From contig JAFSYY010000020.1 of assembly GCA_017455845.1 (NCBI GenBank), forward strand, positions 1 to 32,236: DNA of 32,236 bases, read 5' to 3'. Below, piece by piece: positions 1-31,433 of this stretch (positions are counted from its first letter, which is position 1; every line of letters starts with the position of its first letter). The position numbers and the translations under genes were made by a program. Under the pieces are notes generated by a model. That model saw only the letters and a program-made list of their open reading frames with translations. It searched no databases and was not told the DNA's origin. The DNA is from Prevotella sp. (GTDB lineage: Bacteria > Bacteroidota > Bacteroidia > Bacteroidales > Bacteroidaceae).

Positions 1-91
1 AGTGAAGAGTGAAGAATGAAGAGTGAAGAATGAAGAGTGAAGAATGAAGAGTGAAGAATGAAGAGTGAAGAATGAAGAGTGAAGAATGAAG
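1..91 (+). repeat. Heptamer tandem array (AGTGAAG/AATGAAG)13
   Basis: Thirteen consecutive 7-bp units alternate between AGTGAAG and AATGAAG from the first base of the window, so the array probably continues to the left. It is the longest member of the AGTGAAG family here; other members start at 7754, 8829, 12193, 20567, 27169, 27294 and 28888. It runs straight into the hairpin tail that accompanies most AGTGAAG arrays. No gene overlaps it inside the window. Confidence 0.9.
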
Positions 92-145
92 AATTTCTTT
101 TAGTCGCTACGCTTTGTAAAAGCGGCAAAGCCGAGCGGCTACCGC
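92..145 (+). repeat. Hairpin tail of the AGTGAAG composite element, long form
   Basis: This block of about 54 bp starts AATTTCTTTTAGTCGC and ends GAGCGGCTACCGC. Near-identical copies occur at 8774-8828 (minus), 20581-20635 (plus, one arm changed) and 27241-27293 (minus), always on the same side of an AGTGAAG array. TAGTCGCT near the left end can pair with AGCGGCTA (G-U allowed) near the right end, and GCGGCAAAGCCG forms an inner hairpin, so it resembles a REP/MITE-type palindromic element. Confidence 0.8.
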
Positions 146-2313: not shown

Positions 2314-5019
2314 ATGAAAACAACAAATATGAAAATGATTAGAAACATACTGTCAGAAGTGCTGGCAGTAGTATTTTTCGCTGTCTTGGCCTTCGCCTAT
2401 TTCTATCCGGCCGACGTACAGAACAGGGTGCTGAACCAAGGTGACATCTCTGCCGGCATAGGTGCCGGCGAGGAGGCCAGCCAGTATTACAAGGCTACAG
2501 GCGAGCGCACACGATGGACCAACTCGCTGTTCTCGGGCATGCCCACCTACCAGATCTCCCCGTCGTACGACAGTACCGACACGCTGTCGGCACTCGAGGA
2601 GGCCTACCACCTGTGGCTGCCCGACAACGTTTGGTATCTCTTCGTCTATCTCCTGGGCTTCTATATCCTGCTACGTGCCTTCGACTTCCGGCAGTACCTC
2701 GCGGCACTGGGCAGTGTGATGTGGGCCTTCTCCACCTATTTCCTCATCATCATTGCCGCCGGCCACCTGTGGAAGGTGATGGCTCTGGCCTACCTGCCGC
2801 CCTTGATAGGCGGCATCGTGCTGGCCTACAGGCGTAAATACCTGTGGGGACTTATCGTCACGGCCCTGTTTGCAGCACTCGAAGTGCACGCCAACCATGT
2901 GCAGATGACCTACTACTATCTGTTCATCATCCTGCTGATGATACTGGCTTTCATCATCGATGCCGCGATGCAGAAAGACTGGCTGCATGTGGGCAAGGCC
3001 ACGGGGGCCGTCATCATCGGCGGTCTGCTGGGCGTGCTGGTCAATGCCTCGAACCTCTATCACACCTGGGAATATTCCAAGGACACCATGCGCGGCAAGA
3101 GCGAACTGGTGAAGACCGACAGCAAGAACCAGACCGACAGTGGCTTGGAACGCTCGTATATCACCGACTACAGTTACGGCATCGGCGAGACATGGACGCT
3201 GCTGGTGCCCAACGCCAAGGGCGGCACGTCGATGCGCCTGCTCTTTGACGACGAACGGGCCAAGGCTGCCGTGAAGGATATGACCATCAACGTGGGCAAT
3301 GGACAGGCCATGCCGGCACCGCAGGTGTTCGACTACCTGATGCAGAACGGCCTCTATTTCACCCAATACTGGGAGGATAACATGGAGGAGGGCGCCAACG
3401 GAACGGTAGGTCCCGTCTATGTGGGTGCCTTCGTGCTGATGCTCTTCGTGCTCTGCCTGCTTATCTGCTACAGGAACCCGCTCACATGGGCACTCCTGGC
3501 AGCCACGCTGCTGAGCGTCATGCTGGCCTGGGGCAAGAACTTCATGGGGCTGACAGACCTGTTTATCGACTATATGCCGATGTATGCCAAGTTCCGTGCC
3601 GTGGAGTCGATACTCGTCATTGCCGAGTTCACCATACCCCTCATGGCCATGCTCGCCATCAAGGAGGTGATCTCAGCGGGAAAACCGCTGAGCACGGGAC
3701 ATACCTTAGGACAAACAACGGGACAAACCACGGGGCAAACCTCGGGACAAACCTCGGGACAAACCACGGGACAAACAACGGGACAAACAACGGGCCTCAA
3801 GCCGCAGCACCTGAACCTCAGGCCGCAGACCCTCCTCGCCTTTGCACTGACGGGCGGCGTGGCCCTGCTCTTCGCACTGACCCCCACCACCTTCTTCGAC
3901 TTCTACACCAACGCCGAGGCCGAACTGTTCAAGCAGATACTGCCGCCGCCAGCCGATGCCGGCGCACTGCTCGAGGCACTGAGCCGCGCCCGACAGGCCG
4001 TGTTCACCGCCGACTGCTGGCGCTCGTTCCTCATCATCGCCATAGGCACCGTGGTGCTGCTGCTCTATCAGTCCCGCAGGCTGAAGACATGGATGATGGC
4101 CGGCCTGTTGTTGGTGCTCTGTCTGGTGGACCTCTGGCAGGTGAACCGCCGCTACCTGGACCCCAACGACACGAAACAGTTTGTGAAGAAGGTGGACCGC
4201 CAGCAGATACGTCCGCTGACCGAGGCCGACCAGCGTATCAAGGACGACCCCACACTCTACTACCGCGTGCTCAACCTGGCTCCCAACCTATTTAACGAGA
4301 ACGAGACCTCCTATTACCATAAGAGCGTAGGTGGTTATCATGCCGCTAAGTTGCGCCGCTACCAGGAACTTATCGAGCGTTATATCTCCAAGCAGCAAGG
4401 CACCGTGCGCGAGGCCATCAGCACCTATTACGGCGACCTGACACAGATCAACGGCGACAGCATCTGGAATGTGCTCAACATGCTCAACACCAAGTATTTC
4501 CTTCTGGCGCAGCAGAATATTGAGGTGCAGAACCCCTACGCCTACGGCAATGCGTGGCTTGTGGACAAGGTGACGTATGTGGACAATGCCAACGGCGAAC
4601 TCGACGGACTGGCACAGGCAGACCTGCGGCACGTGGCCGTGGCCGACAAGCAGTTCCGCGAGGTGCTGGGCGAGGCCGTTCCACAGGACTCCACCGCCAT
4701 GGTGGAACTGACGGCCTACGAGCCTAACCAACTGACCTACAACGTACAGAGTGGCAAGGGCGGCGTGCTGGTATTCTCAGACATCTACTATCCGGGCTGG
4801 ACGGCCACCGTCGACGGCCAGGAGGTGGCGTTGGGTCGTGTGAACTACGTGCTCCGTGCCATGCATATTGAGCCGGGTAGCCACGAGGTGGTGCTCAGTT
4901 TCTTCCCGAAGTCCATCAGCACCACTGAGACGCTGGCCTATGTGGCGCTGGCCATCATCGCGCTGCTGATAGTGCTGCTGATTGTGACGACGGCACTGCG
5001 GAAGAAGAAACAGGCGTGA
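2314..5019 (+). CDS. YfhO-family polytopic membrane protein
   Basis: About 901 residues from the ATG at 2314; ATGs at 2329 and 2335 are also plausible. Many hydrophobic membrane segments are visible, the first at LSEVLAVVFFAVLAFAYF, with several more before residue 500, and a last one at the C-terminus (VALAIIALLIVLLIVTTAL) followed by KKK. The layout of a multi-TM N-terminal half with a C-terminal extracytoplasmic domain (IYYPGWTATVDGQ) fits the YfhO family, whose members are linked to envelope glycosylation in Gram-positives; the role in Bacteroidales is unclear. A Gly-Gln-Thr-Thr repeat encoded by seven 12-bp units interrupts a loop near residue 470. The open frame continues upstream inside luxS, but that part is out of frame with luxS and not protein-like. 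Confidence 0.85.
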   Translation: MKTTNMKMIRNILSEVLAVVFFAVLAFAYFYPADVQNRVLNQGDISAGIGAGEEASQYYKATGERTRWTNSLFSGMPTYQISPSYDSTDTLSALEEAYHLWLPDNVWYLFVYLLGFYILLRAFDFRQYLAALGSVMWAFSTYFLIIIAAGHLWKVMALAYLPPLIGGIVLAYRRKYLWGLIVTALFAALEVHANHVQMTYYYLFIILLMILAFIIDAAMQKDWLHVGKATGAVIIGGLLGVLVNASNLYHTWEYSKDTMRGKSELVKTDSKNQTDSGLERSYITDYSYGIGETWTLLVPNAKGGTSMRLLFDDERAKAAVKDMTINVGNGQAMPAPQVFDYLMQNGLYFTQYWEDNMEEGANGTVGPVYVGAFVLMLFVLCLLICYRNPLTWALLAATLLSVMLAWGKNFMGLTDLFIDYMPMYAKFRAVESILVIAEFTIPLMAMLAIKEVISAGKPLSTGHTLGQTTGQTTGQTSGQTSGQTTGQTTGQTTGLKPQHLNLRPQTLLAFALTGGVALLFALTPTTFFDFYTNAEAELFKQILPPPADAGALLEALSRARQAVFTADCWRSFLIIAIGTVVLLLYQSRRLKTWMMAGLLLVLCLVDLWQVNRRYLDPNDTKQFVKKVDRQQIRPLTEADQRIKDDPTLYYRVLNLAPNLFNENETSYYHKSVGGYHAAKLRRYQELIERYISKQQGTVREAISTYYGDLTQINGDSIWNVLNMLNTKYFLLAQQNIEVQNPYAYGNAWLVDKVTYVDNANGELDGLAQADLRHVAVADKQFREVLGEAVPQDSTAMVELTAYEPNQLTYNVQSGKGGVLVFSDIYYPGWTATVDGQEVALGRVNYVLRAMHIEPGSHEVVLSFFPKSISTTETLAYVALAIIALLIVLLIVTTALRKKKQA
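3709..3792 (+). repeat. In-frame 12-bp tandem repeat in the yfhO-like gene
   Basis: Seven 12-bp units of the type GGACAAACMACG encode GQTT/GQTS tetrapeptides in a hydrophilic loop; a degenerate eighth unit precedes it at 3697. Copy-number change would lengthen or shorten the loop without shifting the frame. Confidence 0.9.
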
Positions 5020-5075: not shown

Positions 5076-6477
5076 GTATCAGTTCCAGAAGACGGTCAAC
5101 AGCCTCGGCTTCGGGGATATTCTTCTCCACACATTCCTTGGCGCGGTAGAGGCTGATCTTTCCACGGCCGGCACCCACGTAGCCGTAGTCGGCATCGGCC
5201 ATCTCGCCCGGGCCGTTGACGATGCAGCCCATGATGCCGATCTTCACACCCACAAGGTCCTTCGTGGCCTCCTTGATGCGTGCAATGGTGTCCTGCAGGT
5301 TGTAGAGCGTGCGGCCGCAGCCGGGGCAGGAGATATACTCCGGCTTGGTGAACTTGATGCGGGCGGCCTGGAGAATGGCGTCGGACAAGGTAGTAAGGGG
5401 TGAGGGGTGAGAGGTGAGAGGAGGATAGTTCTGCCCTCTCACCTCTTGCCCCTCACCTCTCACCTCTAATACCAACTTGGTGGCCTTGCGGTCGATGAGC
5501 AGGGCACCTACAGCCATGGCAGCCTTCAGTTGGAAGGTCTCCCAGTCGGGAGCGTCAAGGCTTAGGGTGATGGTGTCGTCCTTGATGCTCGCCTCGGCCT
5601 CGGCACGCAGACGGATACACTCAGGTATGAGTTCCACGAGTTTGCGGGCTACGGGAATCTCGTTTTCGGGTTCCTCGGAGAGGCTCACGCGGATGGTGTC
5701 GCCGATGCCCTCGGTCAGCAGCGCCCCGATGCCCACTGCGCTCTTCAGACGACCGTCCTCGCCCTCGCCGGCCTCGGTGACACCCAGGTGCAGCGGATAG
5801 TGCATGTCCTCGGCATCCATCGTCTTCACCAGCAGGCGCACGGTGGTGACCATGACAACGGTGTTCGAGGCCTTGATAGAGATGACCACGTCGTCGAACT
5901 GCTCGCGGCGGAAGATGCGCAGGAACTCCATGCAACTCTCTACGATGCCCTCGGGGGTGTCGCCATAGCGACTCATGATACGGTCGGAGAGCGAGCCGTG
6001 GTTCACGCCGATGCGCACGGCGGTATGGTGTGCCTTGCATATATTAATAAAAGGTACGAGTTTCTTTTCAATCTTCTCCAGTTCGGCAGCATAGTCCTCG
6101 TCGGTGTACTCCAGATGCTTGAACGTGCGGCCCGGGTCAACGTAGTTGCCGGGGTTGATGCGCACCTTCTCACAATACTGTGCGGCCACGTCGGCGGTAT
6201 GTGCCGTAAAATGTACGTCGGCCACGAGGGGAGTCATGTAGCCGTCGGCCTTCAGTCGGTCGGAGATATGCCTCATGTTCTCGGCCTCGCGGATGCCCTG
6301 GGTGGTGAAGCGCACCAGTTCGCCGCCGGCATCGATGATGCGCTTGGCCTGTGCCACCGCTGCCTCGGTGTCGTTGGTGTCGGCAGTGGCCATCGACTGT
6401 ATGCGGATGGGGTTGTCGCCGCCAATGGCGATATTGCCTACACGGGCCACGGAAGATAATCGTCGTTGATAGTTCAT
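5059..6477 (-). CDS. ispG: 4-hydroxy-3-methylbut-2-enyl diphosphate synthase (IspG/GcpE)
   Basis: This is the reductive [4Fe-4S] enzyme of the MEP isoprenoid pathway, converting MEcPP to HMBPP. The TIM-barrel half is residues 1-270 (GGDNPIRIQSM, VRINPGN, RIGVNHGSLS, LHLGVTEAGEGEDGRLKSA). The Fe-S half has CPGCGRTLYNLQ (Cys384, Cys387) and GIMGCIVNGPGE (Cys418, Glu425). At 472 residues it lies between the short bacterial form (about 370) and the long form of plants, Chlamydia and many Bacteroidetes (about 600), so the insert between the halves is reduced. Residues 336-364 of the linker come from two inverted heptamer arrays. Last gene of the probable aroQ operon. Confidence 0.93.
   Translation of the reverse strand: MNYQRRLSSVARVGNIAIGGDNPIRIQSMATADTNDTEAAVAQAKRIIDAGGELVRFTTQGIREAENMRHISDRLKADGYMTPLVADVHFTAHTADVAAQYCEKVRINPGNYVDPGRTFKHLEYTDEDYAAELEKIEKKLVPFINICKAHHTAVRIGVNHGSLSDRIMSRYGDTPEGIVESCMEFLRIFRREQFDDVVISIKASNTVVMVTTVRLLVKTMDAEDMHYPLHLGVTEAGEGEDGRLKSAVGIGALLTEGIGDTIRVSLSEEPENEIPVARKLVELIPECIRLRAEAEASIKDDTITLSLDAPDWETFQLKAAMAVGALLIDRKATKLVLEVRGEGQEVRGQNYPPLTSHPSPLTTLSDAILQAARIKFTKPEYISCPGCGRTLYNLQDTIARIKEATKDLVGVKIGIMGCIVNGPGEMADADYGYVGAGRGKISLYRAKECVEKNIPEAEAVDRLLELIHKDRE
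5396..5469 (-). repeat. Two inverted heptamer arrays inserted in frame in ispG
   Basis: On the plus strand four units (AGGGGTG, AGGGGTG, AGAGGTG, AGAGGAG; 5396-5423) are followed, after an 11-bp gap, by five units of the complementary type (CCTCTCA, CCTCTTG, CCCCTCA, CCTCTCA, CCTCTAA; 5435-5469). The two halves can fold into a hairpin. They encode a low-complexity stretch between the TIM barrel and the Fe-S domain of IspG. Confidence 0.85.
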
Positions 6478-9698: not shown

Positions 9699-12176
9699 CT
9701 ATTGTCTGAGCAGGTTCATCTTTGTGTGTAGCGGCAAGGCTTGAGAGACCTTTTCGGTATAGCCGTCTAACTTCACAGTAGTACGCTGACGGATGTCGGC
9801 ACTGCTGGCACCGACGAGCACCTCGTAGGTGCCAGGCTCTACCACCCACTGGCTGTCGGCCTCGGAGAAGGAGGCGAGGTCGCGCTGGGCGATGGTCATG
9901 GTCAGCGTCTGGCTCTCGCCGGGCTGCAGGCTGCGTGTCTTGGCAAAGGAGCGCAGTTCCTTGGCGGGCTTCTCTAACCGGGTCATGGGATTGTTGTCAT
10001 GCTGGGAAGCGTGACCTCCTATATTGGGTGCTGCCACATAGACCTGCGCCACCTCCTTGCCGGCATACGTGCCTGTGTTTTTCACCGTCACGGTCACTTC
10101 GATATTTCCGTTTTTCAGCACTCTGGCCTTCATATTTTCATACCCGAAGGTGGTGTAACTCAGGCCATAGCCGAAGGGATAGGCCACGCGGCGGCCGAAG
10201 GTATCGAAAAAGCGGTAGCCCACGTAGATGTCCTCCTCATGGTTGGTGAAGTTGACACCTTTCATGCGCTGGCCGTACATCTTCTCCGAGAGGTTATAGT
10301 AAGGCGGCTCCTGCGGGAAATTAGCAGTCGAGGCATGGTCGGTGGCGGCGATGGGCCATGTCATGGTGAGTTTGCCGGAGGGGTTCTGCCTGCCGGTGAG
10401 CACGTCGGCCACGCTGTTGCCGCCCTCCTGTCCGGGCTGCCAGGCCACGAGGATGGCGTCGGCATAGTCGCGCCATGATGCCGTCTCGATGACCGAGCCG
10501 CTGTTGATGATCACGACGACAGGCTTGCCGGCGGCATGGAAGGCGTTGGCGACGCGTGTCAGCATGTCGCGCTCCATCTGCGAGAGGTTGAACTCGCCCT
10601 CGATAGCGCGGTCGATGCCCTCGCCGGCCTGTCGGCCAATGGTGATGATGGCGGCGTCGGCCTGGCGCAACTCATGCTGGATGCAGCGGTCGGTAATCTC
10701 TATCTCGTCGAGTTTGGGCTGTCCCTGGTCGAGGAACCACATCTCGGGGTTCTTGTCGATGCGCAGTTTCTTGCGGGCATATTTCACGTAGTCCTGATAG
10801 ATCTCTGTGAGGGCCGGCGTGGTGCTGATGCCGTTGTTTTTCAGTCCTGTCACCATATCGACCACGTAGGGCACGTTGACGCTGCCCGAGCCGAGACCGC
10901 CGGAAAGGAAGTCGTAGGAGTTGACGCCGAAGAGGGCCACGGTCTTCACGGCGGGGCCGAAGGGCAGGGTGGAGGGGGCGGCGCTTCCTGCGGGAAAACC
11001 GCCGGACACGGACGCAGCGGAGGGGGCGGCGCTTCCTGCGGGAAAACTGCCGGACACGGACGCGGCGGCATTTTTCAGCAATACCATGCCCTCGGTGCTG
11101 CTCTGGCGGGTGATGGCGGCATGGGCTTTGGTGTCGGGTTTGTTGCTGAACTGATAGCCTTTGAAGCGCGGTGTCTTGACGATATACTCCAGCATGCGGC
11201 GCACGTTACGGTCAACGTCGTCCATCTTCAGACGACCACCCTTCACGGCCTCTATGATGTCGTTGGCCTGTGCGGGATAGCCCGGCATCATCAGGTCGTT
11301 GCCGGCGGCGACTTCCTGCTCGGTGGGCAGGTCGTGGCGTTTGCCAATCCAGTCGGTCATCACGATGCCCTGGTAGCCCCAGTCATTGCGCAGCACGGCG
11401 GTGAGCAGGTCCTTGTTGTTCATGGAGTAGACGCCGTTGATCTTGTTGTACGACGACATGATGGTCCAGGGATTGCTCTCGCGCACCACACGCTCGAAGC
11501 CACGGAGGTAGATCTCGCGCAGGGCACGCGTAGAGACGTTCTCACTCACGCGGGTACGGTCGCTCTCCTGTGAGTTCACGGCAAAGTGTTTGATGCTCAC
11601 GCCCACGCCCTGGCTCTGTATGCCCTTCACACAGGCAGCACCAATCATGCCCGTCACCAGCGGGTCCTCGCTATAGTACTCGAAGTTACGGCCGCAGAGC
11701 GGGTTGCGGTGGATGTTGAGGCCAGGTCCGAGGATGACGTCGCAGCCATACTCCAGCGTCTCGTTGCCAATGGCCCGTCCCACCTGCTCCACCAGTTCGG
11801 TGTTCCAGGTGCAGGCCAGGCAGGTGCCTACGGGGAAGCCCGTGGCATAGAAGGTCTGGTCGGTGCCCTCGCGCCTGGCATTGATATGCACGCCGGCAGG
11901 GCCGTCGCAGAGTACGGTGGCGGGGATGCCCAGGCGTGGTATGGCCACGGTGATGCCTGCGGCACCGGCCACGAGTTTTTTCTGCTGTCCGAGCATAGCG
12001 CCGCTGCCAATGAAGCCGTCGTTGCCACCGCCCACCATCAACTGGGCTTTCTCCTCCAGGGTCATGGCAGCCAATACCTGGTCGATGTTATCTGCACTGA
12101 GTCGGGGTGCCTCCTGTGCCGAGGCGAGCATGAATGGAGTTATCATACAAAACAATAAAAGACAATACTTTTTCAT
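9699..12176 (-). CDS. Glycoside hydrolase family 3 beta-glucosidase (secreted)
   Basis: The 825-residue protein has a signal peptide (MKKYCLLLFCMITPFMLASA). The GH3 N-terminal barrel contains CDGPAGVHI, GPGLNIHRNPLCGRNFEY, KHFAVNSQE and the nucleophile loop GIVMTDWIG (Asp275). The alpha/beta sandwich domain follows (LFGVNSYDFLSGGLGSG, IITIGRQAGEG), and a fibronectin III-like domain closes the protein (KNTGTYAGKEVAQVYV). It would release terminal beta-linked glucose or xylose from oligosaccharides in the periplasm; specificity is not deducible. Between the two catalytic domains a 48-bp repeat adds two copies of an Ala/Ser/Gly/Pro linker. It lies downstream of the YqiA-like gene across a long heptamer array. 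Confidence 0.92.
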   Translation of the reverse strand: MKKYCLLLFCMITPFMLASAQEAPRLSADNIDQVLAAMTLEEKAQLMVGGGNDGFIGSGAMLGQQKKLVAGAAGITVAIPRLGIPATVLCDGPAGVHINARREGTDQTFYATGFPVGTCLACTWNTELVEQVGRAIGNETLEYGCDVILGPGLNIHRNPLCGRNFEYYSEDPLVTGMIGAACVKGIQSQGVGVSIKHFAVNSQESDRTRVSENVSTRALREIYLRGFERVVRESNPWTIMSSYNKINGVYSMNNKDLLTAVLRNDWGYQGIVMTDWIGKRHDLPTEQEVAAGNDLMMPGYPAQANDIIEAVKGGRLKMDDVDRNVRRMLEYIVKTPRFKGYQFSNKPDTKAHAAITRQSSTEGMVLLKNAAASVSGSFPAGSAAPSAASVSGGFPAGSAAPSTLPFGPAVKTVALFGVNSYDFLSGGLGSGSVNVPYVVDMVTGLKNNGISTTPALTEIYQDYVKYARKKLRIDKNPEMWFLDQGQPKLDEIEITDRCIQHELRQADAAIITIGRQAGEGIDRAIEGEFNLSQMERDMLTRVANAFHAAGKPVVVIINSGSVIETASWRDYADAILVAWQPGQEGGNSVADVLTGRQNPSGKLTMTWPIAATDHASTANFPQEPPYYNLSEKMYGQRMKGVNFTNHEEDIYVGYRFFDTFGRRVAYPFGYGLSYTTFGYENMKARVLKNGNIEVTVTVKNTGTYAGKEVAQVYVAAPNIGGHASQHDNNPMTRLEKPAKELRSFAKTRSLQPGESQTLTMTIAQRDLASFSEADSQWVVEPGTYEVLVGASSADIRQRTTVKLDGYTEKVSQALPLHTKMNLLRQ
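10971..11066 (-). repeat. 48-bp direct tandem repeat inside the GH3 gene
   Basis: Two 48-bp copies (10971-11018, 11019-11066) differ at two positions and encode two 16-residue linker repeats (SVSGGFPAGSAAPSAA type). The length is divisible by three, so the frame is kept. Confidence 0.85.
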
Positions 12177-14647: not shown

Positions 14648-15433
14648 TCATAATGAGAAATGATCGGCATCCCGCAGGACGGGGAATTTCTTGCGGAAGG
14701 CAGTGAGTCGCTCCATGTCGAGAGACGCTTTGGCGATGCTTTCCTCATTGTCCGGACATGCAGCGATGGTCTTGCCGTATGCATCGATGACCACCGAGCC
14801 GCCGCAATAGTGGCAGTTTGGGTCGCTGCCTACACGGTTGACACCTATGACGAAGCACTGGTTTTCCAAGGCGCGGGCCTTGAGCAGCGTGTGCCATACG
14901 TCGATGCGCGACGCAGGCCAGTTGGCCACGTAGATGGCGGCATCATAATCCTGGCGAGACGACAGCGGGGTGTCGGCATCAACGGCACTGCTGTTGCGGC
15001 TCCATACGGGGAAGCGCAGGTCGTAGCACACCTGTAGCAGGAAGCGCACGCCGCGCCACGCCACGACGACGCGCCTGTTGCCCGGCGCATAGGCATCGGT
15101 CTCGCCGGCATAGCCGAAGAGATGACGCTTGTCGTAGTAGTCGTAACTGCCGTCGGGGCGCACGAAGAACAGGCGGTTGTGGTCGGTGGCAATACTCGCG
15201 GCAAAGGCGGCATCTTTCTCCTTGGCCTGTGCCTGCAGCCATGAGAGGGGGGAGGAAGGAGGAGGGAGGTGGGAGGATGAGGGAGGCTCCTGTGCCATGA
15301 AGCCGGTGGCGAAGGTCTCTGCCAGCACATAGAGGTCGGCACCCGACTGTTTGTCAAGCATCATGGTGAGGTGATTGAGGTTCTCCTCAATATCACCCCA
15401 CCTGATGTCGTGTTGTATGATAGCGATGGTCAT
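14648..15433 (-). CDS. Carbon-nitrogen hydrolase (nitrilase superfamily, omega-amidase-like)
   Basis: The 261-residue protein carries the nitrilase triad: Glu39 in LAETFATGF, Lys102 in YDKRHLFGYAG and Cys136 in LLQVCYDLRFPVW, plus the family signatures NWPASRIDVWHTLLKARA and GVNRVG. It resembles YafV/Nit2 omega-amidases, which hydrolyse alpha-ketoglutaramate and related omega-amides; the exact substrate is an inference. Residues 49-65 (EPPSSSHLPPPSSPLSW) are a low-complexity insert encoded by GGAGGNN heptamers. It follows the GH98 gene by 38 bp and may be transcribed with it, though the functions are unrelated. Confidence 0.9.
   Translation of the reverse strand: MTIAIIQHDIRWGDIEENLNHLTMMLDKQSGADLYVLAETFATGFMAQEPPSSSHLPPPSSPLSWLQAQAKEKDAAFAASIATDHNRLFFVRPDGSYDYYDKRHLFGYAGETDAYAPGNRRVVVAWRGVRFLLQVCYDLRFPVWSRNSSAVDADTPLSSRQDYDAAIYVANWPASRIDVWHTLLKARALENQCFVIGVNRVGSDPNCHYCGGSVVIDAYGKTIAACPDNEESIAKASLDMERLTAFRKKFPVLRDADHFSL
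15251..15285 (-). repeat. Heptamer array (GGAGGNN) inside the amidase gene
   Basis: Plus-strand units GGAGGAA, GGAGGAG, GGAGGTG and GGAGGAT, then a degenerate unit, lie between the catalytic Glu and Lys motifs. The array keeps the frame and encodes Pro/Ser residues. Confidence 0.75.
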
Positions 15434-27240: not shown

Positions 27241-27321
27241 CGGTAGCCGCTCGGCTTTGCCGCTTTTACAAAGCGTAGCGACTAAAAGAAATTCTTCACT
27301 CTTCATTCTTCACTCTTCACT
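27241..27321 (-). repeat. AGTGAAG composite element, long form, at the ABC exporter 3' end
   Basis: On the minus strand four units (27321-27294; three AGTGAAG, one AATGAAG) contain the exporter's last codons (KSEE-stop) and are followed by the full hairpin tail (27293-27241). Confidence 0.87.
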
Positions 27322-29155
27322 TTTATGTCAAGCACCTGGTTGCAATAGTCCACCACGGCAGTGCGGTGGGTGACGAAGATGATGGTGCGGCGATGGTCGC
27401 TGAGAATATTTTCCAGCACCTTGCGCTCGGTGTCGGCATCGAGGGCACTGGTAGCCTCGTCGAGCAGGAGGATGCTGCCCGGACGGAGCAAGGCACGGGC
27501 GATGGCGATGCGCTGCGCCTGCCCCTCGCTGAGACCGCCGCCCTGCTCGGAGAAACGGGTGTTGAGGCCGTCGGGCAACTCTGCGACAAAATCGGCACAG
27601 GCCAGGCTGAGTGCCTCGTGCATCTGCGCATCGGTGGCAGCGGGGTTGCCCAGCAAGAGGTTCTCGCGCAGGGTGCCGCTGAGCAGGGTGTTGCCCTGCG
27701 GCACGTAGACGAAGTTGCAGCGATGGAGGGGGGTGAGTTCATAGTTCATAGTGCATAGTTCATAGTTCATAGTGCATAGTGCATGGTTCATAGTTGGCTG
27801 TGCGCTCGACTTTGCCGCTTCGCTTGTCGAGGAACTATAAATGGTAACCTTTCCTTCCTGCGGCTTCACCAGTGCCAGCAGCAGGCGGATGAGGGTGGTC
27901 TTGCCCGCTCCCGTCTCGCCCATGATGGCGGTACATGAGCCCGGTTTGAAATCAAAAGAAAAATGATTCAGTATCGCAGCAGGACTATCCTCGCACCTCG
28001 CACCTCGCACCTCGTGCCTCGCACCTCCATACCAGAAGGTGACATCGTCGAAGCGGATGCCACAGGGGGCGGGCAGAGGCTGCGGGTCGCCCTGCAGTTC
28101 CTCGGGTATCTCTTCCAGTTCCATGAGTCGCTCGGTGGCCGTAAACACGCTGACGAAGGTAGGCACCAGGCGTGCCAGTTCGCGTGCCGGCCCCTGTATC
28201 CTGTTCACCAGTTGCAGGAAGGCAGTCATGCCGCCGAAGGTCAGCGTGCCGGCACTCATCCGCAGGGCACCCCACAGGAAGGCGATGAGGAATCCCAGCG
28301 AGAAACCGAAGTTAAGGAAGAAATTGCTGGCCACGGAGAACATCGTGCGGCGGCGCACCCACTGGCGCAACACCTGCTGCGTGCCGGCCAGGCGGTCGAG
28401 CATCTGACGGTTGGCTTCCATCGTCTTCACCAGCATGCGGTGCTGCATGGTCTCGGTGAGCAGGCTCTGTATGCGGCTGTCAGTGTCGCGCACCTTCCGT
28501 GTGTATTTCCTCATATAAGCCACGTAGATACGGCTCACCAGGATAAAGAGGGGCAGGATGGCCACGGTGATACATGCCAGCCACACGTCCATCTGCAGCA
28601 GATAGACGAAGGCACCGATAAACATGGCCACGGTGCTGAGCGTCGACGGCAGCGTCTCGGTAAGGAAGGTGACCACTGTCCTCACGTCCTGCTCCAGGCG
28701 GTTGATGATGTCGCCGCTGTGCATGGCCTCGCGACCGCGCCACTCCGAGCGTAGCAGGCGTGCCAGGATGCGCTGCTGCATGACGTTCTGCGCCTTCACG
28801 CCGAGGATGTTCTTGATCCACACTCGCGAGATGCCCACTGCAAACTCGCCCAGGATGAGCAGAGCCATGACGGCGACAGCCCAGAAAAGTGAAGAGTGAA
28901 GAGTTGAGAGTGAAGAGTGAAGAGTGAAGAATTTGCTTCCGCAGAAGTACTTGCGGCAAACCCTTTGGCGGCAATGTCGATGGCCCGTTGCATAGCCCAT
29001 ACCGAGGCCAGGCTGAGCGCCACGCCCAAGAGCCCTATGGTCGCATTGAGTATGGCCTGCAGGCGGTTGCCCTTCAGTGCCTTCCACAACCAGCGGAAAA
29101 TCTCTCTCACCGTATAGTGGTTCTCTGGTATCTGAAATATTTTTCTGAGGTTCAC
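27303..29155 (-). CDS. ABC exporter (fused permease-ATPase), frameshifted at a heptamer array
   Basis: The protein would be a type I half-transporter: membrane domain, then ATPase with Walker A GETGAGKTT, Q-loop YVPQGN, signature LSEGQAQR, Walker B ILLLDEATSALD and switch FVTHR. The N-terminus (GTG at 29155; NLRKIFQIPENHYT, helix LLGVALSLASVWAM) is in one frame, while everything from FWAVAVMALLILGEF onward is in another. The shift falls in a (AGTGAAG)6 array at 28888-28929. Seven or four units would join the two parts in frame. Two more heptamer arrays lie in the ATPase domain and keep its frame. It ends VKSEE, taken from a further array. Exported substrate unknown. Confidence 0.82.
27740..27795 (-). 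repeat. Heptamer array (CATAGTT/CATAGTG)8 inside the ABC ATPase domain
   Basis: Eight units, one with a G substitution (CATGGTT), lie between Walker A and the Q-loop and encode a TMNYELC-type peptide repeat. The 56 bp is not a multiple of three, so flanking changes must compensate, because the frame is intact on both sides now. Confidence 0.9.
27989..28030 (-). repeat. Heptamer array (CCTCGCA)6 inside the ABC ATPase domain
   Basis: The units are CCTCGCA (three), CCTCGTG, CCTCGCA and CCTCCAT, 42 bp in all, encoding GARHEVRGARCED just after the first strand of the ATPase domain. This is the same family as the intergenic array at 1046-1087. Confidence 0.9.
28888..28942 (+). repeat. AGTGAAG array with short tail inside the ABC membrane domain
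   Basis: Six units (third is AGTTGAG) at 28888-28929 are followed by the short tail AATTTGCTTCCGC at 28930-28942, antisense to the gene. It sits in the loop between the first and second membrane helices, exactly where the reading frame changes. Confidence 0.92.
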
Positions 29156-29159
29156 AGTG

Positions 29160-29167
29160 CAAAATTA
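29160..29167 (-). promoter_or_regulatory. -7 box for the ABC exporter gene
   Basis: Minus-strand TAATTTTG followed by CAC ends only 4 bp before the GTG start at 29155, implying a leaderless or nearly leaderless message if this promoter is used. Confidence 0.5.
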
Positions 29168-29206
29168 CGAAAATCTTACCTGCCCGCCAAACAATTCCTT
29201 TGCTTT

Positions 29207-29238: not shown

Positions 29239-29295
29239 CAAACTCAACAAAACATTTTTGCTCTGTTGTTGGGGTGTTATAATTTGAATATTACT

Positions 29296-30130
29296 ATGAA
29301 TAGGAATGTGTTAATTACGCAGACTGCGTGAAATACGCACTGCACCATAAAGGCTTCGATGCCGATGACTTCGAGAATACCACATGCGTGTCTACTATCG
29401 TCGGGTGGCTAATCCCTTGACAATTTTCAAGACCCTCAAAAAGGGGGTATCATTATCCCTGTTGTAGATGCCGGGTTCGTGTGACTTGCAGGCGGCAACG
29501 CGGCTGTCGTGCTCTTAGGCGTTAGCGATGACAGTGTCCAGGTGCGGATATACGACCCTGTGAAAGAATGTGTAGAAGACCGAACCGCACAGGCTTTCCT
29601 GGAGGCATGGGGGTAGGGCTGGTGGCCTGTGTACCACGGCCTTTGTCAACGACGGAACTTATACGCCAAAGTTGTTGGACCTGACATACGTGGAACTGCC
29701 CGACGGACAGGACGAACTGCTGGAGGCCATGGCAGAGAATGCCCACGACATGTGGGCCAGGGAGCGTCAGAGCGAGGGGTGGACTTACGGACCTGAACGC
29801 AACGACCAGTTGCTGGAAACACCTGACATGGTGCCATACGCCCCCGTTGACACGCATGAGATAGAACTGCCGCCTCATCTTGATGACCTTATAGAGACCA
29901 TGGCAAAGAATGTGCATGAGGTGTGGGCGCAGACGCGCCAGCGGCAAGGGTGGGTCTATGGCCAGCAGCGAGACGATGCCCGTAAATGGCATCCATGCTT
30001 AGTGCCATACGAGGAACTGACCGACGACGAGCGCGAATATGACCGAAACACGGCCGTTGAGACCCTGAAACTAATCATGAAGATGGGCTTTACTATCCAA
30101 CCGGCCGCTGAGATCAGTATTAACCATTAA
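29296..30130 (+). pseudogene. Decayed RyR-domain protein with papain/C39-like N-terminal fragment
   Basis: The ATG at 29296 starts MNRNVLI and then the frame is lost. Pieces in successive frames read NYADCVKYALHHKGF with TTCVSTIVGW, NPLTIFKTLKKG, then IIIPVVDAGFV-stop-LAGGNAAVVLLGVSDD and YDPVKECVEDRT with FLEAWG. This order (early Cys, later GGNA, then YDPV) suggests a cysteine-peptidase-like fold; that is an inference. From about 29640 one open frame holds CTTAFVNDGTYTPKLLDL and two RyR domains: the first truncated (MAENAHDMWARERQSEGWTY), the second complete (VHEVWAQTRQRQGWVYG through EYDRNTAVETLKLIMKMG). At least three frameshifts and one TGA make expression of the full protein unlikely; the RyR part alone might still be made. 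Confidence 0.72.
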
Positions 30131-30142
30131 TATTGGAGTAAT

Positions 30143-30452
30143 GTGAATTCATCGCAGAAGTATAAGTATTTTGCCTTTATCAGTTACAGTTCCAAGGACT
30201 TGGAGTGGGGCAAGCGGGTGCAGCGCAAACTGGAGCACTATCGCATGCCCGCTACGCTGTGCAGCGAACATGGGTGGGAACGGACACCCATCAAGCCGGT
30301 GTTCTTTGCTCCGACAGACATCCAGCCAGGAGGCCTGACAGCCGAGATACAGGAGCGGCTGCGCGCCTCGCGGAATCTGATTGTCATCGGCTAGCCCAAC
30401 TCTGCCCAGTCGGAATGGGTGGGCAAGGAGATTGAGTTCTTCCACCAAATAT
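30143..30452 (+). pseudogene. TIR-domain protein fragment with premature stop
   Basis: From a GTG at 30143 (preceded by GGAG) the frame reads YKYFAFISYSSKDLEWGKRV, then EHYRMPATLCSE, PVFFAPTDIQPGGL and SRNLIVIG, a bacterial TIR domain start. TAG at 30392-30394 interrupts it; the same frame continues with PNSAQSEWVGKEIEFFHQ to a TGA at 30452, so one nonsense change is enough to explain the break. After this the frame shifts and the text resumes at YENIYRWQWLNKERAYVQL, implying a deletion as well. Bacterial TIR domains commonly act as NAD+-consuming enzymes in immune systems. It lies 12 bp after the RyR gene. Confidence 0.75.
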
Positions 30453-31433
30453 GAAAACATCTACCGCTGGCAGTGGCTGAACAAGGAGCGGGCCTACGTG
30501 CAACTTGTCTCGAAACTGCTTGGCGAAGTGTCGGAGGACGTACTCATTTCTCTTATTAATATCGGCAGTATGAAAAGTGGAATGAAGGACTACAAGCAGT
30601 CATACGAGTACTACCAGCAGGCAAAGGAGATGGCTGAGAAACTCTTTTCGCCAGACGACCCCATGTTTGCTCATGTCTACAGCGGCTTGGGAGTATGCTA
30701 TTCTAACTTAGGCGAACTCGACAAGGCAATAGAATGTCATACCTTAGCCCTCAATATAAGAAAGAATGCCTACGGAGATACCCATCCCATTTTAGGGGGA
30801 GTCTTCAACAACTTGGCAATGGCGTATTACAAGACTGGAGATTTCTCCTTAGCCAAAGACTACTACGACAAGGCCGTCAAAATATGGGCTGACGCATACG
30901 GCGAGGACAACAGTAGGTTTGTAACCCTATATGGAAACATTGCGTTGATGTATGTAGAACAAGGGGAGATAGACACCGCAATAAGATACTATGAGGAAGC
31001 CTTGCGCGTGTCAAAAAAACTATATGGAGACGACAGCCCCATTACCGAGGAAGTGCTGCCCAGCCTGTACTCGGCTCTGGAGAGTCTGGTCAATCAATCG
31101 CCGACAGAAGAGAACAAAAAAAGACTGGCAGACTTCATGGCCGACAAAGTACCGGCGTGTATTGTCATCAGTGGTGGCCCTGCATACGAACAAGGTCTGA
31201 GGGGGAAATGTGTGGTAATGGAATATTGCGGATGGACGATAGATAGCGGCAAGGCCATGTTCCATCTCGTCGCGCCGACGGCAGGAAAACCTAAGGATAT
31301 TGCACTCATGCACGACGGGAAGATAGACAACTATCACTTTGAAGACAGGATAGGCGTTCGGTGGGTGCTCTGGATTGTATCCGCTGAGAGGAAACAAGAG
31401 ATGATGGCCGAGTATAGGAAATGGAAGAAATGA
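30450..31433 (+). pseudogene. TPR and PDZ-like C-terminal part of the broken TIR protein
   Basis: The frame from YENIYRWQWLNKERAYVQLV continues to a normal stop at 31433 (about 327 residues). It holds four or so 42-residue kinesin-light-chain-type TPRs (SYEYYQQAKEMAEKLF; GLGVCYSNLGELDKAIECH; NNLAMAYYKTGDFSLAKDYY; GNIALMYVEQGEIDTAIRYY). A C-terminal segment looks PDZ-like (ISGGPAYEQGLRGKCVV, then KPKDIALMHDGKI). There is no good start codon at its head; a downstream ATG near 30570 could express the TPR part alone. The first residues continue the TIR-protein text, so this was once one gene with the fragment before it. Confidence 0.7.

Follow-up and report, generated by a model that had tools for sequence, protein, structure and literature searches.

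An ABC exporter gene of Prevotella broken within a heptad array: a likely slippage-type ON/OFF locus in the tail of a dispersed element

In a Prevotella draft genome, the gene of an ABC exporter is interrupted within an array of 7-bp units (heptads) that is one unit shorter than the array of a near-identical intact allele, and it is likely that the exporter switches OFF and ON by the loss and gain of such units. Slippage-type ON/OFF variation is the best reading of this locus; the evidence base for switching consists of two alleles per gene, of which the intact ones are known as protein and not as DNA, and of a draft assembly. The array forms the tail end of a dispersed element that consists of a short leader, GCGG(T/A/C)AGCAAATT, and heptads, and here we describe both the broken gene and the element family to which its array belongs.

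The exporter locus and its intact allele

The contig studied (C81 in our numbering; GenBank JAFSYY010000020.1), whose 32,236 nucleotides are hereafter the window, belongs to a 2.43-Mb draft of 124 contigs that is 68% complete. The exporter gene lies on the minus strand and runs from a GTG at 29155 to its end at 27303, in two frames. Its nearest named relatives, in a list from which the window's own record may be missing, come from rumen Prevotella drafts and Prevotella communis and are 73-75% identical. The features of the locus are given below, where P0003 is the intact allele.

29160..29191, minus strand: promoter-like TTTG (29191-29188), 20 bp and TAATTTTG (29167-29160), directly before the GTG
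28931..29155, minus strand: 5' piece of the exporter gene in the native frame, with the GTG start and the first membrane helix, 75 codons (translation; 73 of 75 residues as in P0003; codon usage)
28930..28942, minus strand: leader GCGGAAGCAAATT of the dispersed element (genome pattern search and leader comparison), its last bases common to the start of the array
28884..28930, minus strand: site 1, array of six heptads (one variant, TCTCAAC) followed by TT TTC, where the frame breaks
28796..28883, minus strand: out-of-frame run past the array, which ends the 119-residue product of the six-unit state (ORF 28796-29155)
27303..28886, minus strand: 3' piece of the exporter gene, from FWAVAV to the stop, open throughout (remaining membrane helices and ATP-binding domain)
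27989..28027, minus strand: site 2, CCTCGCA-type array, in frame, with a coded peptide identical in P0003
27736..27795, minus strand: site 3, AGTTCAT-type array within the ATP-binding domain, in frame and exceeding that of P0003 by 21 bp
27293..27321, minus strand: heptad array overlapping the 3' end of the exporter gene

On the minus strand, site 1 reads TCTTCAC three times, TCTCAAC once and TCTTCAC twice, then TT TTC. The distance from the last N-terminal codon (AAT) to TTC TGG, where FWAVAV begins, is 44 bp, that is, six heptads plus TT; since this is 2 modulo 3, the exporter frame breaks, and a codon-usage test found both flanks to be coding, in different frames. These two observations bear out the initial annotation, which had placed a frame break within a 7-bp repeat, and its arithmetic also holds, as one unit more or two fewer turns the 44 bp into a multiple of 3. 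The description of the repeat had to be corrected in two respects: the six AGTGAAG units are not identical, five being perfect and one a variant, and the array, reported at 28886..28942, occupies 28884-28930, the remainder of that span being the leader. Beyond the array the native N-terminal frame reaches a stop after 88 bp, so that with six units translation from the GTG would terminate after 119 residues, and the fragment would contain a single membrane helix, the first. With seven units the exporter would instead be full length and would carry, in the loop that links helices 1 and 2, an SSLFTLH-type insert encoded by the repeat.

The promoter-like box was recognized by its likeness to the Bacteroidetes consensus; a sigma-70 promoter scan of the exporter region, with three hits where 1.1 were expected (sd 1.1), was set aside. 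From the downstream frame, a shadow extension free of stops reaches over the N-terminal region (27303-29162, TTG start), which is unlikely to be a real product because the TTG at 29162 sits within this promoter-like box.

Queried with the exporter's downstream piece, a database of about 5.8 billion proteins yielded P0003, a protein of 612 residues in one open frame (98% identity; 11 member sequences, one contig of 3874 bp) that matches the profiles ABC_membrane and ABC_tran; none of the 25 NCBIfam matches listed for it reaches the family cut-off, and its predicted structure was discarded because the model was too poor (mean pLDDT 47). P0003 reads ...SAEAN SSLFTLHSSLFTLHSSL FWAVAV..., with 17 residues between the same two residues, equivalent to 51 bp and to seven heptads. 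At site 1, therefore, P0003, known as protein, is one heptad longer than the window, a difference that changes the frame, and the intact seven-unit allele that had been predicted appears, at the protein level, to exist in nature. Elsewhere the two alleles are almost identical: 523 of 531 residues match in the downstream piece, with one substitution and one in-frame gap of 7 residues, and 73 of 75 in the N-terminal piece, where one difference is the GTG read as V against M. The gap corresponds to site 3, at which P0003 is shorter than the window by 7 residues (21 bp, three heptads) with the frame kept; two arrays of one gene thus differ between the alleles, one by a single unit and the other by three. 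The P0003 peptide bears no trace of the variant TCTCAAC unit, and the loss of one perfect unit from the seven-unit allele is therefore not enough to give the six-unit one.

The array at site 1 is an insertion, since it is absent from the sister sequence P0004 (86%) and heptads occur at this site in none of the 27 usable relatives of the 29 aligned (L047 and L049 were dropped because of wrong-strand frames); three relatives, L039, L040 and L053, carry other, non-heptad inserts here. In the protein database no short N-terminal fragment from the same species was found among the 10 matches at E 1e-10 or better, all of which are relatives of 59-83% identity.

The initial annotation had named simple decay as an alternative to switching, and the comparison with P0003 argues against it, since no other gene-breaking lesion was found. 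A more specific form of this explanation is that the lineage lost one unit once and that the exporter is a fresh pseudogene, whose array is mutable but in which nothing restores or selects switching. We regard this as unlikely, even though only two alleles have been seen and the genes broken at arrays (the exporter, a phosphopantetheinyl transferase, CbiD and a Peptidase_C26 gene; see below) look dispensable. The neighboring TIR-like gene is also interrupted: upstream of the exporter, on the plus strand of the window at 29290-31433, lie an RyR-domain ORF (29672-30130), a TIR-like ORF (30143-30394) that ends early and whose match is weak and under the cut-off, and a TPR protein (30381-31433), perhaps together a decayed TIR-TPR gene, and these broken-looking genes indicate that decay does happen in this region. 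Nevertheless, a fixed loss has to account for the lack of a second lesion across the 606 residues compared, and for the repetition of the one-unit pattern in a second gene. In the latter, which codes for the phosphopantetheinyl transferase (L001), a three-unit TCTTCAC array interrupts the frame close to the end. Its allele P0133 (227 residues, two contigs; 98% identity over 95% of the query) has a peptide that fits four units at this array and the intact end SFTTIERLDKNYIYTVCEQ, which the window genome encodes in another frame; P0133 also has two additional in-frame copies of a 39-bp repeat. Hence both genes checked in the protein database have a natural allele that is one heptad longer and, at the protein level, intact.

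A dispersed leader-plus-heptad element

The pattern TCTTCACTCTTCAC occurs 172 times in the 2.43-Mb genome against 21 times for the reversed pattern, and the leader GCGG(T/A/C)AGCAAATT is present in 83 exact copies against none for the reversed control. Of these copies, 54 run directly into CTTCA, while other arrays follow the same short leader or longer ones also beginning with GCGGTAGC. Some copies of the element lie in inverted pairs, which appear at the protein level as SEELRVKSEEFATA...AVANSSLFTLHSSL. Where the orientation is the stop-prone one, an in-frame TGA is avoided by recurrent units such as AGTTAAG. By eye, a YTCR core in one register seems common to the heptads TTCACTC, TTCATAG, CTCACCT, CTCAACT, CTCGCAC and TTCACAA. 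Of 150 genomes of the genus, 54 have the leader-array junction GCGGHAGCAAATTCTTCA, as have 19 of the 301 genomes (5 of 30 genera) in a sample of the family, the window genome being counted; a patchy distribution of this kind would be expected if the element spreads. The array alone, as TCTTCAC three times, was found in 56 of the 150 genomes of the genus. In the open-licence literature, no publication on a leader-plus-heptad element was found for Prevotella, for Bacteroidetes or for bacteria at large.

As candidate spreaders, Y1 transposases were detected in 10 of 10 chosen genomes with the element and in 1 of 12 without it. In a wider set the association was much weaker, at 40 of 54 and 48 of 96 (p 0.003), among the matches listed and with size classes made afterwards; likewise among the matches listed, 7 of the 30 genomes with at least four elements have no Y1 match. 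The element was absent beside the Y1 genes at 13 loci, in fetched stretches of 2.2-4.2 kb. Reverse transcriptases were rejected as spreaders, because RVT_1 shows no association (6 of 10 chosen genomes with the element, 8 of 12 without).

An array with the TCTCAAC unit occurs at exactly two loci of the genome, site 1 and contig C61, in otherwise different surroundings, and exchange or assembly cross-talk could therefore have set the six-unit state. In the case of cross-talk, reads from another array would have changed the unit number during assembly and the living strain would have an intact gene. Besides the array in common with C61, several contigs of the draft end in such arrays: the start of the window (1-94) and ends of contigs C3, C13, C67 and C78 lie in heptad arrays or a few bases from them, as is expected if assembly halts at repeated elements. 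However, the array at site 1 spans 47 bp, which is short against ordinary reads, and both flanks come from one gene of one strain type, which makes an artifact of this kind very unlikely. No more probability than this can be given to an exchange of arrays, namely copying between loci, instead of slippage, as the source of changes in array length and unit make-up, although not only the TCTCAAC array but also stop-avoiding units such as AGTTAAG recur, the latter in several genes; no common tract beyond the array was seen, and a one-unit change in two genes is the simplest outcome of slippage. Slippage-type variation remains the best reading, and the changes in unit number would arise by slipped-strand mispairing during replication, which is the simplest source of single-unit changes, with exchange between arrays as a possible, less probable alternative.

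Reading phase of the arrays inside genes

The reading phase was studied in 112 distinct arrays from 51 stretches of the window's own genome around TCTTCACTCTTCAC places (from 100 of the 172). The codon test called 35 of them in frame and 19 shifted, with 38 coding on one side, 8 on neither and 12 at edges. Seven of the in-frame arrays were dropped because of a stop codon between the flanks, and 16 of the shifted ones because the upstream frame stops before the end of the array, leaving three breaks, to which two more (L104 1737 and L106 1791), not called as shifts by the codon test, were added from overlapping ORFs and split profile matches. A count based on the same ORF on both sides was rejected in favor of the codon-usage and stop tests because it misfiles site 1 as in frame through the shadow frame. 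In all, 28 intragenic arrays preserve the frame, against 5 that break it (binomial p 1.5e-9 for the comparison with one third, to be read bearing in mind that arrays sharing a gene are not independent); both counts are low, as uncalled and edge arrays, some of them in one open frame, were left out. This imbalance suggests that selection removes most out-of-frame copies, which persist in few genes. Among the 28 in-frame arrays, 21 are in the stop-free orientation.

Frame-keeping arrays occur in the genes of phosphoribosylformylglycinamidine synthase, glutamine-tRNA ligase, glutamine synthetase III and a glycogen synthase, and in the window an in-frame heptad stretch (5396-5467) lies inside a gene resembling ispG, as named from its sequence. 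A heptad-type stretch at 15245-15286 is also present inside a window gene that, similarly named, is nitrilase-like. The five breaks are distributed over the exporter, the phosphopantetheinyl transferase, a cobalamin gene (two) and a peptidase. In the cobalamin gene, CbiD is broken at two arrays according to profile continuity, the Pfam positions being 2-26, 23-126 and 129-254, with the first match weak (E 0.0008) and under the cut-off; by the same approach, the Peptidase_C26 gene is broken at an array between positions 1-133 and 162-219.

The proposal that the exporter is phase variable gains partial support from the natural allele that appears to have seven units and from the similar behavior of a second gene, but the array is no dedicated switch, being one copy of a genome-wide element that mostly keeps the frame where sampled inside genes. 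It would rather be the slippery tail of this element which, in a gene that can be spared, would toggle the gene through the number of its units. More broadly, and tentatively, it is possible, if somewhat doubtful, that a mobile leader-plus-heptad element seeded rumen Prevotella with slippage-prone coding inserts, giving in-frame loops of variable length in essential genes and ON/OFF loci in spare genes, and so contingency loci genome-wide from one repeat family.

Relation to known repeats and significance

Simple-sequence repeat (SSR) contingency loci undergo phase variation by slipped-strand mispairing at simple-sequence repeats. As in such loci, the exporter reading frame contains a tandem repeat with a short, frame-shifting unit, not a multiple of 3, and natural alleles with different unit numbers, one broken and one intact at the protein level, appear to exist for a gene that is otherwise intact. 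In the exporter, unlike in these loci, the repeat comes as the tail of a dispersed element whose leader is conserved, and most of the sampled intragenic heptad copies keep the frame. With REP sequences, which go with RAYT (Y1) transposases, the element shares GTAG, a REP feature contained in 57 of the 83 leader copies (GCGGTAGC); the exporter's own leader has GAAG instead. Among the matches listed, Y1 transposases are somewhat more frequent where the element is present, and a repeat flanking its Y1 gene was not encountered at the 13 Y1 loci.

Rickettsia palindromic elements (RPEs) are described as dispersed and inserted in frame in many unrelated protein genes, palindromic and about 150 bp long (PMC10969869). 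To the extent that this source characterizes them, RPEs resemble the heptad element, which provides 28 in-frame intragenic arrays in the sampled stretches, in unrelated genes, but differ from its short leader and variable heptad tail; a stable hairpin is also not supported for the long leader, whose folding does not surpass that of shuffled sequences (z -0.81). The heptamer repeats known from Beggiatoaceae, Cyanobacteria, Xanthomonas and a few Bacteroidetes (TAACTGA and the G-rich units GGGAATC and GGGGA(C/T)T) are likewise 7-bp units dispersed in the genome in variable number, and are mostly intergenic or under-represented in coding regions, according to what is stated in PMC4679880 and PMC4692102. 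As far as these accounts go, the Prevotella units differ in sequence, are in many cases intragenic and in frame, and have a leader in common.

Other coding repeats were observed in the same genome. A 48-bp repeat in a glucosidase-like gene (window 10971-11068) codes for a SVSGGFPAGSAAPS-like peptide, and GGFPAG or GGFPPG peptides resembling SVSGGFPAGSAAPS are present in unrelated genes of L106 and L115, possibly as another dispersed coding repeat; on the plus strand, a large membrane protein contains a (TTGQ)n-type stretch encoded by a 12-bp repeat of about 8.5 copies (window 3693-3794).

Phase variation through tandem repeats is known mostly from pathogens, in single genes whose repeats have grown in place. 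In Prevotella, by contrast, a dispersed element supplies the repeat and lands in frame inside conserved enzymes. Such a system would allow the birth of contingency loci to be observed, and it would advise caution in calling array-broken genes of this kind pseudogenes in metagenome drafts.
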